DNA from: Fundidesulfovibrio terrae
GTDB lineage: Bacteria > Desulfobacterota > Desulfovibrionia > Desulfovibrionales > Desulfovibrionaceae
Length of the DNA: 64,000 nucleotides
Assembly: GCF_022808915.1 (NCBI RefSeq)
Contig: NZ_JAKZFS010000005.1
Location: forward strand, 124,001-188,000
Direction of reading: 5' to 3'
A program made the translations under genes and the position numbers. Below the pieces are notes generated by a model. The model searched no databases, was not told where the DNA came from, and saw only the letters and a list, made by a program, of their open reading frames with translations. Positions 2,805 to 46,643 of this stretch are shown in pieces. Position 1 is the stretch's first letter, and each line of letters begins with the position of its first letter.

Positions 2805-3362
2805 ATGCTTTCCACCACCGACTTCCGCCGCGGCCTCAAGATCGAGCTGGACAACATCCCTTACGAAATCGTGGACTTCCAGCACGTCAAACCCGGCAAG
2901 GGCGGCGCTTTCGTCCGCACGAAGCTGAAGAACATGCTCAACGGCCGCGTGGTGGAGAACACCTTCCGCTCGGGCGAGAAGATGGAAAAGCCCGACATGG
3001 AAACCAAGGAGATGCAATTCCTTTATAAGGACGGCTCCGGTTTCGTGTTCATGGACATGGAGAGCTACGAGCAGTTCTCCGTGGACAAGGAAGTGCTGGG
3101 CGACAAGGGCGGCTATCTTGTGGACGGCATGGAGCTGACCATGCTCATGTACCGCGCCAAGCCCCTGGACATGGACCTGCCCACCTCCGTGGTGCTGGAA
3201 GTGACCCACACCGAGCCCGGCCTCAAGGGCGACACCGTCAGCGGCGCCACCAAGCCCGCCACCCTGTCCACCGGCATCACTCTGAACGTGCCCCTGTTCG
3301 TCAACGAAGGCGAGAAGATCAAGGTGGACACCCGCTCCGGCGAATACCTGGGACGCGTCTAG
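2805..3362 (+). CDS. efp: Translation elongation factor P
   Basis: Relieves ribosome stalling at consecutive prolines. The protein has 185 residues and three beta-barrel domains as usual. The tip of domain I is KPGKGGAFV with Lys32 at the position modified in other bacteria by EpmA (or another pathway), so a lysine-type modification is possible; no modification gene is in this window. The C-terminal domain ends with the usual [20 protein letters not shown] lies upstream of the ATG. The larger in-frame reading that begins inside aroQ is a frame artefact. A clear terminator follows at 3384. Confidence 0.96.
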
Positions 3363-3383
3363 CCCGAATACATGATGATCCGA

Positions 3384-3419
3384 GGCCGTGGGGCGATGCG
3401 CTCCACGGCCTTTTGTTTT
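3384..3419 (+). terminator. Intrinsic terminator after efp
   Basis: Stem GGCCGTGG (3384-3391) / CCACGGCC (3403-3410) with an 11-nt loop, followed by TTTTGTTTT. It separates aroQ-efp from the ftsK operon. Confidence 0.85.
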
Positions 3420-3516
3420 GGATCGGGCGCGGTCGTCCGGAAGCGCGGCAAGCGGCTTTTAATCGCCGGTTTTTTCGCGTACTGGCAGGGCTTGGAGTAT
3501 CCCAACAGGGCGGGTT

Positions 3517-5715
3517 ATGGAGACGGAACGCAAGAAGATTCTGGAAGAGCTGATCGGGGTCACGCTCGTTTTCGTGGCCCTGTTCTTCGTGGTCGCCCTG
3601 TACTCCTTCGACCCCCTGGACCCCACCTTGAACCAAACCACGGCCAAGGGACGCGAGGTCGCAAACCTCACCGGCGTGATCGGCTCCTACCTGGCAGGGA
3701 TCTTGGCCGACCTGTTCGGGCTGGCCGCGTGGTTCGTTCCGGCGCTTTTCACCTACGCCGGAATCCGCAGGCTCTTTCCCCTCATCGGCATCACCCGCAG
3801 GCACTGGGCCGGGCTCTTCGGGCTGTTCCTGGTGTTTCTCATCTCCTTCGGCTCCGACTGGCCGGGGCCGGGGATCAGGATTCACCAGGTAGCCGGGGGC
3901 GGGTACCTGGGCGGGGCGCTCTACCGCTTCGGGGCCAGGATGATCCACCCGGTGGGCATGTACCTGCTGGTCACTTTTCTGGGCATCGTCAGCCTGCAGC
4001 TCTTCCTGGGCATATCCTGGCAGGAGCAGACCTCGCGGATGAAAGGCGCGCTCGAAGGCGTCTGGAGCCAGATCGGCCCCGGAATCATGCGTTTCCTGTT
4101 CGGGCCGGACAAGGCGGAACGCGAGGCCCTGGCCGAAGGGGACCACGAACCCACGGCGCACGACCCCCACGATCCTGATGAAGAGCTGGTGGTGAAACGC
4201 CAGGCCAAAAGCGAGAAGCCCGCAAAACCCAAGGCGGCCGCCAAGCCGCAGCCGAAACCGGCCCGCGCGCAGGCAAACGGCGTTTTGCCGCCGCTTTCGC
4301 TGCTCACGCAGCCGCCAGCTCAGGCGGGCGGCCCCTCCGAGGACGTGCTGCGCGCCCAGTCGGCCAGCCTCATGACCTGCTTGAGCGACTTCGGCATCCA
4401 GGGCGAGATCGTGCGCATCGTGCCCGGGCCGGTGGTCACCATGTTCGAGTTCAAGCCCGCTCCTGGGGTGAAGGTCAGTCGCATATCCGGGCTTTCAAAC
4501 GACATCGCCCTGGCCATGAAGGCCATGGCCATCCGCATCGAGGCCCCCATCCCCGGGCGTGACACCGTGGGAGTGGAGATCCCCAACGTCAAGCGCCAGA
4601 CCGTGTACCTGCGCGAGGTGCTGGAGTCCGACGCCTTCAACGGTTCGCCCTCCAGGCTGACGCTTTCCGTCGGCAAGGACATCCAGGGACGCCCCTTCAC
4701 CGCCGACCTGGCCCGCATGCCGCACCTGCTGGTGGCGGGCGCCACGGGCAGCGGCAAGAGCGTGTGCATCAACGGCGTCCTGCTCTCGATTCTCTACAAG
4801 GCCCAGCCCAGCGAAGTGAAGCTCCTGCTCATCGACCCCAAGCGCATCGAGCTGGCCATGTACGCCGACCTGCCGCACCTGGTGCATCCCGTGGTCACGG
4901 ACATGGCCCTGGCCAAGTCCGCCCTGGACTGGTGCGTGGCCGAGATGGACCGGCGCTATGAGGCCATGGCCGTGCTCGGGGTGCGCAACCTGGACGGCTA
5001 CAACGAGAAGGCCGCCAAGCTGGCTGCCAATCCCGGCCCGGACGTCGAGGTGATCGAGCCCATGCCCTATCTGGTGCTCATCATCGATGAGCTGGCCGAC
5101 CTCATGATGACCGCCGCCAAGGAAGTGGAGATCGCCATCGTGCGCCTGGCGCAGCTTGCGCGCGCGGCTGGCATCCACATGATCCTGGCCACCCAGCGCC
5201 CAAGCGTGGACGTGGTCACGGGCCTCATCAAGGCCAACTTCCCCACGCGCATCGCCTTCCAGGTGACCAGCCGCCACGACTCGCGCACCATCCTGGACAC
5301 TGTGGGCGCGGAACACCTGCTTGGGCGCGGCGACATGCTCTTCAAGCCCAGCGGAGCCAAGATGGTGCGCATGCACGGGGCCTTCGTCTCCGACGAGGAG
5401 AGCGCCCGGGTGGTGGAATACTGGAAGGAGCGCCAAGCCCCCAGCTACCTCATGGACCTGGCCAGCTGGAACGACGCTTCCGGCGGCGACGGCCAGGGTG
5501 GCTTCGGCGACGGCGAGTCGCTTTCCGACCCGGTGTACCCCCAGGCCCTGGAGTTCGTCATGGAGCAGGGCAAGGCGTCCATATCGCTCATCCAGAGGCG
5601 TTTCAGGATAGGCTTCAACAGGGCCGCGCGGTTCATCGAACAGATGGAGCGCGAGGGGCTGCTCGGGCCGGCCGACGGCAGCAAGCCCCGCGTCGTGCTC
5701 AAGGGCAAGGACTAG
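3517..5715 (+). CDS. ftsK: DNA translocase FtsK/SpoIIIE
   Basis: Septal ATP-driven DNA pump that clears the chromosome dimer-resolution region and activates XerCD at dif. The protein has 732 residues. Four hydrophobic segments lie in the first ~170 residues, then a short Ala/Pro/Lys-rich linker (about 210-275), far shorter than in E. coli. The motor follows, with Walker A GATGSGKS at 408-415 and Walker B ending in Asp524-Glu525. The C-terminal ~60 residues form the winged-helix gamma domain that reads KOPS sites. It is the first gene of a run ftsK - unknown - lolA - unknown - pgm. A xerD homologue lies at 62.2-63.2 kb. Confidence 0.95.
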   Translation: METERKKILEELIGVTLVFVALFFVVALYSFDPLDPTLNQTTAKGREVANLTGVIGSYLAGILADLFGLAAWFVPALFTYAGIRRLFPLIGITRRHWAGLFGLFLVFLISFGSDWPGPGIRIHQVAGGGYLGGALYRFGARMIHPVGMYLLVTFLGIVSLQLFLGISWQEQTSRMKGALEGVWSQIGPGIMRFLFGPDKAEREALAEGDHEPTAHDPHDPDEELVVKRQAKSEKPAKPKAAAKPQPKPARAQANGVLPPLSLLTQPPAQAGGPSEDVLRAQSASLMTCLSDFGIQGEIVRIVPGPVVTMFEFKPAPGVKVSRISGLSNDIALAMKAMAIRIEAPIPGRDTVGVEIPNVKRQTVYLREVLESDAFNGSPSRLTLSVGKDIQGRPFTADLARMPHLLVAGATGSGKSVCINGVLLSILYKAQPSEVKLLLIDPKRIELAMYADLPHLVHPVVTDMALAKSALDWCVAEMDRRYEAMAVLGVRNLDGYNEKAAKLAANPGPDVEVIEPMPYLVLIIDELADLMMTAAKEVEIAIVRLAQLARAAGIHMILATQRPSVDVVTGLIKANFPTRIAFQVTSRHDSRTILDTVGAEHLLGRGDMLFKPSGAKMVRMHGAFVSDEESARVVEYWKERQAPSYLMDLASWNDASGGDGQGGFGDGESLSDPVYPQALEFVMEQGKASISLIQRRFRIGFNRAARFIEQMEREGLLGPADGSKPRVVLKGKD

Positions 5716-22496: not shown

Positions 22497-22554
22497 AGCC
22501 CAGCTCCCGTCCCTGTTTGACCTTTCATTCGGCGACGGGTATGTATCTCCCCGA

Positions 22555-22716
22555 ATGCGTTCGATATAATGGAACACGGTGCGAATCCGTGGCGGACCCG
22601 CCGCTGTATCCGGGGACGCGGGAGGGCATGGCGAAACGCCGGTCACTGGGGCTTTCCCCGGGAAGGCTGGCCCCTCCGCGAGTGATCCGGGAGCCAGAAG
22701 ACCTGTCGAAACGCAT
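22555..22716 (+). promoter_or_regulatory. Cobalamin riboswitch
   Basis: The landmarks of the adenosylcobalamin aptamer appear in order. TATAATGGAAC is followed by CGGTGCGAATCCGTGG and then CCCGCCGCTGTA. The central part holds GTCACTGG and GGGAAGGC, and the B12 box is GAGCCAGAAGACCTG at 22691-22705. P1 can form between ATGCGTTCG (22555-22563) and CGAAACGCAT (22707-22716). A terminator starts 23 nt downstream. It should switch off the cbpAB genes when B12 is plentiful. The order and wording closely match the E. coli btuB leader as I recall it. Confidence 0.95.
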
Positions 22717-22739
22717 CATCAACGGAATCCGAAGGCAAA

Positions 22740-22777
22740 GGGTTCCGGCAGGATAGTCCTGCCGGAACCCTTTTTTT
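22740..22777 (+). terminator. Expression platform of the cobalamin riboswitch
   Basis: A perfect 14-bp stem, GGGTTCCGGCAGGA (22740-22753) / TCCTGCCGGAACCC (22757-22770), loop TAG, followed by seven T. It lies between aptamer and first gene, so control is probably by premature termination. Confidence 0.92.
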
Positions 22778-22805
22778 GTTTGTACGGTGAAACAAAGGAG
22801 GAACC

Positions 22806-22907
22806 ATGAAAAAGAACGGCAAGAAAGACGTGATCGCCTTCAGGAAATCCTGCAAGGCCGACGGCACCGGACTGTCCCACTACATCCTGATGGATCCCAA
22901 GAAATAA
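22806..22907 (+). CDS. cbpA: CbpA-like modified-peptide precursor
   Basis: A 33-residue peptide. The N-terminal part is Lys-rich (MKKNGKKDVIAFRKS) and the C-terminal part is CKADGTGLSHYILMDP followed by KK, with one cysteine (Cys16). AAAGGAGGAA sits 4 nt before the ATG, the best ribosome site in the region. It directly follows a B12 riboswitch and directly precedes a radical SAM/SPASM-type enzyme, the arrangement I remember for the CbpA/CbpB families (a peptide precursor and its maturase). The likely role is substrate of the enzyme encoded 2 nt downstream. Mature product and function unknown. The family name is from memory; the context is seen directly. Confidence 0.82.
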   Translation: MKKNGKKDVIAFRKSCKADGTGLSHYILMDPKK

Positions 22908-22909
22908 CG

Positions 22910-24316
22910 ATGTCCCAGCCGTCTTCCAAAGCGGCCCCCGGCGGGGGCCGCTTCTTCAACACAGGCATGAGTCCCTCCCTGCAGCCCGTGGACATCGGCC
23001 ACCGCGACTACATGGCTGTGGTCGATCCGGACACGGCCTTCTGGGCGCTGGTGCGCAAGGAGAAGCTCGGTCAGACCCTGACCGGGCGCGCGTTCATGGC
23101 CGCCTACGAGCAGAAGGCCCAGGAATTCGCGCAGGAAATGCATCGCCTGCGCTTCGGCCTCAAACCCTCGGCGGTCTATTTCAACCCCACTGAGCGTTGC
23201 AACCTCAACTGCGCCTACTGCTACATCCCGTCGGAGCTGCGCTCGCACGGCGAGCACATGTCCAAGCCCAGGCTGCTGGAGGCCCTGGACAGGCTCAAAG
23301 CCCACTTCCGGGCCACGCTCCCGGAGGGAACACGCCCCCAGATCATCTTTCACGGCGCTGAGCCCATGCTCAACCGGGAGGCCATGTTCGCCGGGATAGA
23401 ACGCTACCGAGGCGATTTCCGGTTCGGCGTCCAGACCAACGCCACGCTCCTGGACGACGAGGCCATTTCGTTTCTCATGGACAACGGCGTGGGCGTCGGC
23501 ATCTCGCTTGACGGCCACAGTGCGGTCGTGGCCGACCGCGCCCGGGTCACGTGGGGCGGGGACGGCGTGTCGCGGCAAGTGAACGCTGTCATGGAAAAGC
23601 TGCGCGGCTACTCCGCGTTCAACGTCATCTGCACCGTGACCAGCCTGAACATCCGTTCGCTGCCGAAGATCGTGGAGTATTTCCACTCCCGCGAGGTTTC
23701 CACCTGCTTGCTGAACATGGTGCGCTGCACCCTGCCCGGGGCGCGGGAAATCAAGCCCGACGAGGACGAGGCCGCCAAGTGGTTCGTCAAGGCGTTGGAA
23801 CGCTCCCACGAGTTGTACGCCAAGACCGGGCGCAAGCTGGTGGTGGCCAACTTCGCCAACATTCTGCTGGCGGTCATGGCTCCCACCGCGCGCCGCCTCA
23901 TGTGCGACATCTCGCCCTGCGGCGGCGGACGGTGCTTCTTCGCCCTGGCCCCCAGCGGGGACATCTTCCCGTGCAGCGAGTTCATCGGCCTGCCGGACTA
24001 CAAGGGCGGCAACTTGTTCTCGGACAGCCTTGATGACGTCCTGCAAAGCAAACCCTTCCTGGCAGTCACCGGCCGCAAGGTGGAGGACATCGAGGACTGC
24101 GCGCGTTGCGCCATCAGGCATTTCTGCGGTTCGCCGTGTCCGGCAGAGGCGGCTGAGATGAATGGCGGCATGGAGAAGAAGGGCGCGTTCTGCCGTTTCT
24201 ACGAAGAACAAGTGCGCTACGCCTTCAGGCTGATCGCCGACGGGCGCGCTGACGACTTCCTGTGGGAAGGTTGGGACGACGGCGTGGAGACGAAGTTCGA
24301 TTTGACGTCGGTGTAA
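22910..24316 (+). CDS. cbpB: Peptide-modifying radical SAM enzyme (CbpB-like)
   Basis: A 468-residue radical S-adenosylmethionine enzyme. The [4Fe-4S]-SAM motif is CNLNCAYC with Cys97, Cys101 and Cys104. The C-terminal third is cysteine-rich in the manner of SPASM/twitch maturases: LMCDISPCGGGRCFF, IFPCSEF, DCARCAIRHFCGSPCP and AFCRF. These should hold auxiliary iron-sulfur clusters. The start 2 nt after the peptide stop has no strong ribosome site of its own, so translation is probably coupled to cbpA; an in-frame ATG at 22967 is an alternative. Predicted to install a crosslink or other radical-made change in the 33-residue peptide. B12 control is unusual because the enzyme shows no B12-binding domain. 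Confidence 0.85.
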   Translation: MSQPSSKAAPGGGRFFNTGMSPSLQPVDIGHRDYMAVVDPDTAFWALVRKEKLGQTLTGRAFMAAYEQKAQEFAQEMHRLRFGLKPSAVYFNPTERCNLNCAYCYIPSELRSHGEHMSKPRLLEALDRLKAHFRATLPEGTRPQIIFHGAEPMLNREAMFAGIERYRGDFRFGVQTNATLLDDEAISFLMDNGVGVGISLDGHSAVVADRARVTWGGDGVSRQVNAVMEKLRGYSAFNVICTVTSLNIRSLPKIVEYFHSREVSTCLLNMVRCTLPGAREIKPDEDEAAKWFVKALERSHELYAKTGRKLVVANFANILLAVMAPTARRLMCDISPCGGGRCFFALAPSGDIFPCSEFIGLPDYKGGNLFSDSLDDVLQSKPFLAVTGRKVEDIEDCARCAIRHFCGSPCPAEAAEMNGGMEKKGAFCRFYEEQVRYAFRLIADGRADDFLWEGWDDGVETKFDLTSV

Positions 24317-24322
24317 CGGACG

Positions 24323-24356
24323 GGCCGGGGGCGCGTAGCGCCTCCGGCCTTATCTT
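24323..24356 (+). terminator. Terminator after cbpB
   Basis: Stem GGCCGG-GGCGC / GCGCC-CCGGCC around GTA (24323-24349, one bulged base each side), then TTATCTTAT. The U-run is interrupted. Confidence 0.6.
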
Positions 24357-46425: not shown

Positions 46426-46453
46426 AAAAGGCCCGGCGTTAACCGGGCCTTTG
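46425..46453. terminator. Bidirectional terminator between EcsC-like gene and tRNA-Ser
   Basis: Stem AAAGGCCCGG (46427-46436) / CCGGGCCTTT (46443-46452), 10 bp, loop CGTTAA. The minus strand continues with the better U-run (TTTTT), so it may serve the tRNA-Ser transcript as well as the EcsC-like gene. Confidence 0.75.
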
Positions 46454-46549
46454 AAGGAAACCAGGCACCCAAAAGCAACCGTTACCGTTGCTCCCTCTCG
46501 GGCCTGGCGGGGTTGGCGGCGCCAATGCCGCCTGGCTTCCTTGGAAAAG

Positions 46550-46643
<94 letters not shown>

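Follow-up and report, generated by a model that had tools for sequence, protein, structure and literature searches.

A compact operon in Fundidesulfovibrio terrae, lying in the 64,000-nucleotide stretch of DNA analyzed here (the window), comprises a cobalamin riboswitch aptamer, a terminator, a ribosome-binding site and the genes cbpA and cbpB. The best explanation is that this is a B12-repressed RiPP operon, the modified peptide of which acts late in the assembly of cobamides, in their salvage or in the handling of corrinoids; the case for and against this explanation is evenly balanced, and within it we infer both the chemistry and the molecular role. The family itself is already known by name. 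What is new is the near-constant tie of cbpAB to cobamide metabolism, together with data that speak against a role in cobalt insertion and with the existence of two-core CbpA precursors.

Results

Organization of the cbpAB operon

The features of the locus are as follows.

22526–22724, plus strand: cobalamin riboswitch aptamer (RF00174, 74.7 bits, model positions 1–189 of 189)
22737–22777, plus strand: intrinsic terminator, a hairpin followed by a T run that is likely to be the expression platform (stem of 17 pairs with a loop of 3; fold z-score −8.2)
22796–22801, plus strand: ribosome-binding site AGGAGG (from the sequence, 4 nt 5′ of the cbpA ATG)
22806–22907, plus strand: cbpA, 33-residue precursor peptide (TIGR04164, 60.2 bits)
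22830–22904, plus strand: conserved core of cbpA, residues 9–33 (span of the TIGR04164 match)
22910–24316, plus strand: cbpB, 468-residue radical SAM/SPASM enzyme (TIGR04163, 703.2 bits; Pfam Radical_SAM and SPASM)
24322–24350, plus strand: terminator-like hairpin 3′ of cbpB (consensus scan only, which gave 4 such sites in the region against 1.9 expected from shuffles)

The set of elements named in the initial annotation of this locus (aptamer, terminator, 33-residue ORF and radical SAM/SPASM enzyme) was confirmed, and the interpretation placed on them was supported in part. The gene following cbpB is a convergent lysA, identified by profile search. Elsewhere in the window, a Small SRP RNA adjoins a tRNA at 46449–46643 on the minus strand.

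A search with RF00174 returned the aptamer at 22526–22724 of the plus strand with an E-value of 1.4e-16, passing the gathering score of 31.5. The aptamer was thus complete, as had been proposed, and the start first assigned to it, 22555, omitted its first 29 nt. The perfect 14-bp stem followed by seven T residues was likewise seen in the sequence: the arms GGGTTCCGGCAGGA and TCCTGCCGGAACCC pair at 22740–22770 ahead of TTTTTTT, and counting the A/T pairs on either side brings the stem to 17 pairs. The fold of 22732–22777 had a z-score of −8.2, and none of 200 shuffled sequences folded equally well. Of 69 distinct loci, 49 likewise have a terminator in the interval from aptamer to peptide, compared with 13 of 69 control stretches of the same length 3′ of cbpB (Fisher 8e-10); by the same test, 20 loci have none. 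The covariance match, the fold statistics and the terminators at other loci together support the reading of this leader as a cobalamin aptamer with a terminator platform, an arrangement which, from its sequence, implies that cbpAB expression would be higher at low B12.

A scan of the F. terrae genome detected four cobalamin riboswitches. Besides that of cbpAB, the second precedes a run encoding an FecCD-type permease, an ABC ATPase, a BtuF-like protein and a tetrapyrrole methylase, the third lies ~ 0.9 kb before the gene for NrdD, the anaerobic ribonucleotide reductase (L116:5710–7776, contig C2), and the fourth precedes CobT. As CbiC, CbiF and CobS were all found in the same genome, F. terrae should be able to produce its own cobamides.

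The two proteins belong to the CbpA/CbpB family

The peptide matched TIGR04164 (cobo_pep) over profile positions 1–25 of 25 with 60.2 bits against a cut-off of 35, and the enzyme matched TIGR04163 (rSAM_cobopep) over positions 1–428 of 428 with 703.2 bits against a cut-off of 375. Both scores lie far above the curated NCBIfam cut-offs, and the pair is therefore the named family CbpA/CbpB, as the initial annotation had suspected. The adjoining of peptide and enzyme genes that defines the family was also observed, the cbpA stop codon being separated from the cbpB ATG at 22910 by 2 nt. The names of the two models themselves hint at cobalamin, and the window locus carries no sequence feature that sets it apart from other members.

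Within the PMC literature, no paper named TIGR04163 or TIGR04164, none joined CbpB with radical SAM and precursor peptide, and none linked a riboswitch for cobalamin or B12 to both radical SAM and RiPP. The passages of PMC3543383 that were consulted do not describe the CbpA/CbpB pair.

CbpA is conserved as a protein

CbpA of the window is MKKNGKKDVIAFRKSCKADGTGLSHYILMDPKK, a polypeptide of 33 amino acids with a single cysteine at position 16; its ORF, at 22806–22907 with AGGAGG 4 nt 5′ of the ATG, is the 33-residue ORF first described. An HMM of the peptide built for this work located cbpA ahead of cbpB in 108 of 111 loci, and the three loci without a match are cut by a contig end that leaves just 40–183 nt upstream. 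The frame is thus kept beside homologous enzymes. No variation was seen at Cys, Gly, Leu or His among 100 distinct DNA cores; Arg stood at −3 in 98, Ser was present in 97 (Ala in two, Thr in one) and Tyr in 94 (Phe in six). The core pattern itself requires Cys, Gly and His, and among the HMM matches only the contig-cut L104 did not fit it. The codons of the constant residues varied freely, with six codons used for Leu, four for Gly and two for His, indicating selection on CbpA as a protein. Pairing and protein-level conservation together support the earlier view of CbpA as the likely substrate of CbpB. The core-like stretch that had been proposed to start at the cysteine did not hold, since the conserved unit, VIAxRK.C...GLSHYIL, begins ~ 7 residues before it; moreover, the Asp is not conserved, and Ser and Tyr are replaceable in the 100 distinct DNA cores.

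In Sedimenticola hydrogenitrophicus a single ORF encodes a precursor with two in-frame core copies (L096:7519–8001, found again as L144), to which TIGR04164 matches twice, and a second two-core precursor was found in another genome of the same gammaproteobacterial order (L143). Each copy retains all of the constant residues. CbpB scored above its cut-off in only two of 195 genomes of that order, and these are the two genomes with two-core precursors. From the tandem cores, a unit of ~ 25 residues, running from about VIA.R to MDK, is taken as the product unit. When ten precursors picked for diversity were tested against TIGR04164, three, all encoded beside CbpB, fell under the cut-off (L019, 19.6 bits; L026, 32.8 bits; L032, 27.0 bits), so that the model looks too narrow and misses part of the family. 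The two-core precursors and these low-scoring peptides widen the TIGR04164 family among its relatives.

CbpB resembles peptide-modifying radical SAM/SPASM enzymes

The enzyme had been described as a 468-residue protein with the motif CNLNCAYC starting 2 nt past the peptide ORF, which proved correct, and Pfam lists Radical_SAM and SPASM domains for it. Pfam lists no B12-binding domain for CbpB, in keeping with what had been claimed. An alignment was made of 54 enzymes with 52–68% identity to CbpB of the window, L079 and L097 being left out as their given ranges held a stop. Ten cysteines (C97, C101, C104, C337, C355, C397, C400, C406, C410 and C428) were invariant; these are the three of the radical SAM motif CX3CX2C and the seven SPASM cysteines.

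The structure model of CbpB had a mean pLDDT of 88.7. The best sequence match of CbpB in the PDB is CteB (5wgg/5why), a sactipeptide/ranthipeptide maturase that likewise has radical SAM and SPASM domains. Residues 23–446 of the model resemble CteB with a Z-score of 34.1 and an rmsd of 3.5 over 382 residues, and the N-terminal part aligns too. In CteB this part binds the leader of a small peptide, in which the enzyme forms a Cys thioether. The two enzymes differ in that they share only ~ 20% identity and CbpA has one conserved Cys, and a thioether made by CbpB is putative. The anaerobic sulfatase-maturating enzyme AnSME (4k36–4k39) has the same core fold as the CbpB model (Z-scores 33.5–34.1); however, its substrate is a full-size protein, and CbpB scored 113.1 against the AnSME family model TIGR03942, the cut-off of which is 349.45. 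ChlB also resembles the CbpB model over the core. Thioether formation, or modification of a Cys/Ser residue in a peptide, is the chemistry of the best solved-structure matches, CteB and AnSME. The second-best NCBIfam match of CbpB was the PapB-type ranthipeptide maturase NF047865, and assignment to that family was rejected as the score of 127.1 bits is far under the cut-off of 340.

The pathways for PQQ and mycofactocin likewise consist of a small peptide and a radical SAM/SPASM enzyme. Both products serve metabolism rather than antibiosis, and both require further processing genes. The cbpAB loci differ from them in having no recurrent adjoining processing gene and in being under B12 riboswitch control.

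Most cbpAB loci carry a cobalamin riboswitch or lie beside B12 genes

CbpB was found above cut-off in 36 of 395 genomes of the host phylum, the G042 protein being a fragment. A wider scan with one genome per species confirmed 494 places, the best 80 of which were used; the record titles of these 80 name Planctomycetota, Nitrospinales, Chloroflexi, Bacillota, Verrucomicrobiota, Kiritimatiellota, Omnitrophota, Elusimicrobia, Lentisphaerae, Nitrospirae, Acidobacteria and several proteobacterial groups.

A strict riboswitch pattern matched 74 of 111 loci, none of 94 downstream stretches and none of 2220 shuffles. It agreed with Rfam at all 40 loci scanned by both, and of 27 further loci that the pattern had missed, 13 proved to have a riboswitch by Rfam, one with a weak score (L035, 33.4 bits); the cross-check covered these 40 and 27 loci. 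Removal of near-identical loci left 104, from which six with < 450 nt upstream were dropped (L049, L090, L094, L099, L100 and L104). An own cobalamin riboswitch was present in 81 of the 98 judgeable loci and absent from 17. B12 genes lay within 8.5 kb in 14 of these 17 loci, compared with 14 of the 81 with a riboswitch (Fisher 5e-7). The gene list used also counts clusters of tetrapyrrole methylases and of BtuF-like and FecCD proteins, and part of these could belong to siroheme or iron metabolism; with a narrower list that omits them, the figures were 14 of 17 and 11 of 81. The flank was only ~ 1.5 kb in 24 of the 98 loci, so that B12-neighbor counts there are low, and among loci with long flanks the figures were 13 of 16 and 14 of 58. 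When 20 short-flank loci were enlarged, that of L008 (as L125) turned out to lie within a B12 cluster, and CobU/CobS were seen 8.3 kb away in L136.

Runs of genes for the corrin ring, cobalt import, the nucleotide loop or B12 uptake were found to include the pair. In L073, for example, cbpAB is followed by genes for a phosphatase, CobU, CobT, CobS, CobD/CobQ and CbiB (named by cluster representatives). Of the three loci with neither a riboswitch nor the B12 genes counted, L044 encodes a RACo-type reductive activator of corrinoid proteins with a CBS domain ~ 0.9 kb before cbpA (3287–5521), and no B12-like genes were seen in the flanks examined of L079 and L084. The recurrence of the pair in many phyla, beside B12 genes or switches, suggests that its product probably serves B12 metabolism.

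Clusters that recurred across loci were mostly B12 genes; the others were an AcrB-type pump with an HlyD-type protein (five loci), an Asn-synthase-like ORF (four) and a short radical SAM ORF (three). No recurrent partner gene emerged from 20 enlarged phylum loci, where the clusters present in at least three look like local synteny; CbpB-type proteins were set aside in this clustering, which used ORFs of at least 70–80 amino acids from a crude ORF caller and would therefore miss small partners. An exporter, a peptidase or a further tailoring gene was not found in most loci, and the product may therefore act inside the cell. Some other neighbors were noted. An Asn-synthase-like ORF (PF00733) directly adjoins cbpAB in L072, L083, L098 and L105, and in L072, L098 and L105 a short radical SAM ORF is also nearby; it could be that these are extra tailoring or corrinoid genes of lineages that look salvage-only. 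In L133 and L138, a 4Fe-4S dicluster protein, presumably HdrC-like, is encoded 3′ of cbpB on the same strand, with Fer4_8 detected by Pfam in L133.

Distribution of cbpB relative to cobamide synthesis genes

In the host phylum, CbiC was present in 34 of 36 genomes with cbpB and in 165 of 359 without it (Fisher 5e-9, kinship ignored); the two exceptions with cbpB, G005 and G316, both have CbiF. CbpB is missing from 165 of the 199 CbiC-positive phylum genomes, and the system is therefore optional. Outside the host phylum, 32 of 50 cbpB-positive genomes have CbiC, and CbiF was above cut-off in just one of the other 18. The 17 of 50 genomes that thus lack both ring-synthesis markers look, from their gene content, salvage-only, and 15 of these 17 have CobS. 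The 50 genomes carry no completeness value and some are MAGs, so that single absences may be gaps, and kinship is ignored in the counts.

CobS was found in 72 of 77 cbpB-positive genomes tested and in 27 of 42 cbpB-negative controls, a hand-picked set with 35 members from families in which cbpB occurs. Nine of the 42, all of the host phylum, have CobS and lack CbiC. Late-pathway genes alone therefore do not predict CbpB, and in the host phylum the pair follows ring synthesis. With CobS in 72 of the 77 carriers, and in 15 of the 17 that look salvage-only, what nearly all carriers have in common is the late pathway and not cobalt insertion. A role of CbpB in replacing oxygen-dependent lower-ligand synthesis was also considered; BluB was above cut-off in 12 of the 77 cbpB-positive genomes, the set in which it was sought, and hence BluB and CbpB coexist.

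Discussion

The invariant Cys and His of CbpA, and the tracking of ring synthesis by the pair in the host phylum, would fit a peptide that handles cobalt as a chelator or chaperone: once modified, it would capture Co2+ through Cys and His and pass it on for metalation of the corrin ring at low B12. The gene order of L071, CobB-CbiC-cbpAB-CbiX-CbiM-(two ORFs)-CbiQ-CbiO-CbiD (named by cluster representatives), is consistent with this too, as cbpAB there has CbiC on one side and, on the other, the chelatase CbiX and the cobalt importer CbiM. However, the 17 carriers outside the phylum with neither CbiC nor CbiF above cut-off, some of them MAGs, should not metalate a ring at all, and CobS is retained in nearly all of them. 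Cobalt insertion as the role is weakened by this, and we regard it as unlikely. The counts argue instead for late cobamide assembly, salvage or handling.

The initial annotation had raised a secreted corrinoid scavenger or a signal, that is, a released peptide that binds outside corrinoids or signals B12 shortage. Genes for a BtuF-like protein, an FecCD permease and a TonB receptor do accompany cbpAB in L072, L098 and L105, and an AcrB-type RND pump with an HlyD-type membrane-fusion protein, which would fit export, is encoded near cbpAB in five loci (L038, L040, L047, L057 and L064). Note, however, that this pair is on the opposite strand in four of the five, that most loci have no exporter and that no secretion signal was apparent in CbpA by eye. 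In the host phylum, moreover, the pair tracks de novo B12 synthesis, and CbpB occurs in none of the nine chosen genomes with CobS and without CbiC, where a scavenger would be most useful. The idea is weakened by these data and, like cobalt delivery, it is improbable.

Riboswitches of this class also control B12-independent isozymes, as the one before NrdD in F. terrae illustrates, and one interpretation is that CbpA matures into a redox or radical cofactor, comparable to PQQ or mycofactocin, on which enzymes that replace B12-dependent ones would draw. The neighbors of cbpAB across loci, however, make or take up B12 and are not isozymes, and the CbiC counts in the host phylum associate the pair with making B12; such a back-up function is accordingly quite doubtful. 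That the 33-residue frame is a leader peptide or regulatory short ORF, which yields no product and only tunes cbpB expression, is suggested by its very small size and its place directly 3′ of the riboswitch, and is highly improbable given amino acids conserved over phyla with free synonymous codons, the two-core versions and the retention of the peptide in loci without their own riboswitch.

The preferred reading is thus a B12-repressed operon for a modified peptide of cobamide metabolism, and it would operate as follows. Binding of adenosylcobalamin would favor the terminator, so that cbpAB would be transcribed at low B12. CbpB may then use its 5′-deoxyadenosyl radical to join the invariant Cys of CbpA to one residue within GL(S/A/T)H(Y/F), a thioether being the most likely bond; it is from the resemblance of the CbpB model to CteB that we infer a crosslink from Cys to GL(S)H(Y). 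A housekeeping protease would release the ~ 25-residue core, and the product, probably intracellular, would aid the late steps of cobamide assembly, salvage or the handling of corrinoids; it might, for instance, bind corrinoids as a Cys/His ligand or carry them, giving more usable B12 when it is short. As a guess, a Cys and a His so close together would be well placed to bind a corrinoid or the cobalt in it.

Pathways of B12 metabolism are thought to be well mapped, and cbpAB points to an unrecognized accessory step in obtaining cobamides. Its significance lies in a conserved pair that, in many phyla, stands beside genes for synthesis, cobalt import and uptake or shares a B12 switch with them. 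The system is small, and can be expressed and tested directly. We tentatively propose, with somewhat more doubt than confidence, that cbpAB yields a metabolic RiPP of a new kind, a modified peptide of ~ 25 residues made from single or tandem cores under B12 repression in many phyla, which would be a dedicated partner of the cobamide pathway as a ligand, carrier or assembly cofactor.
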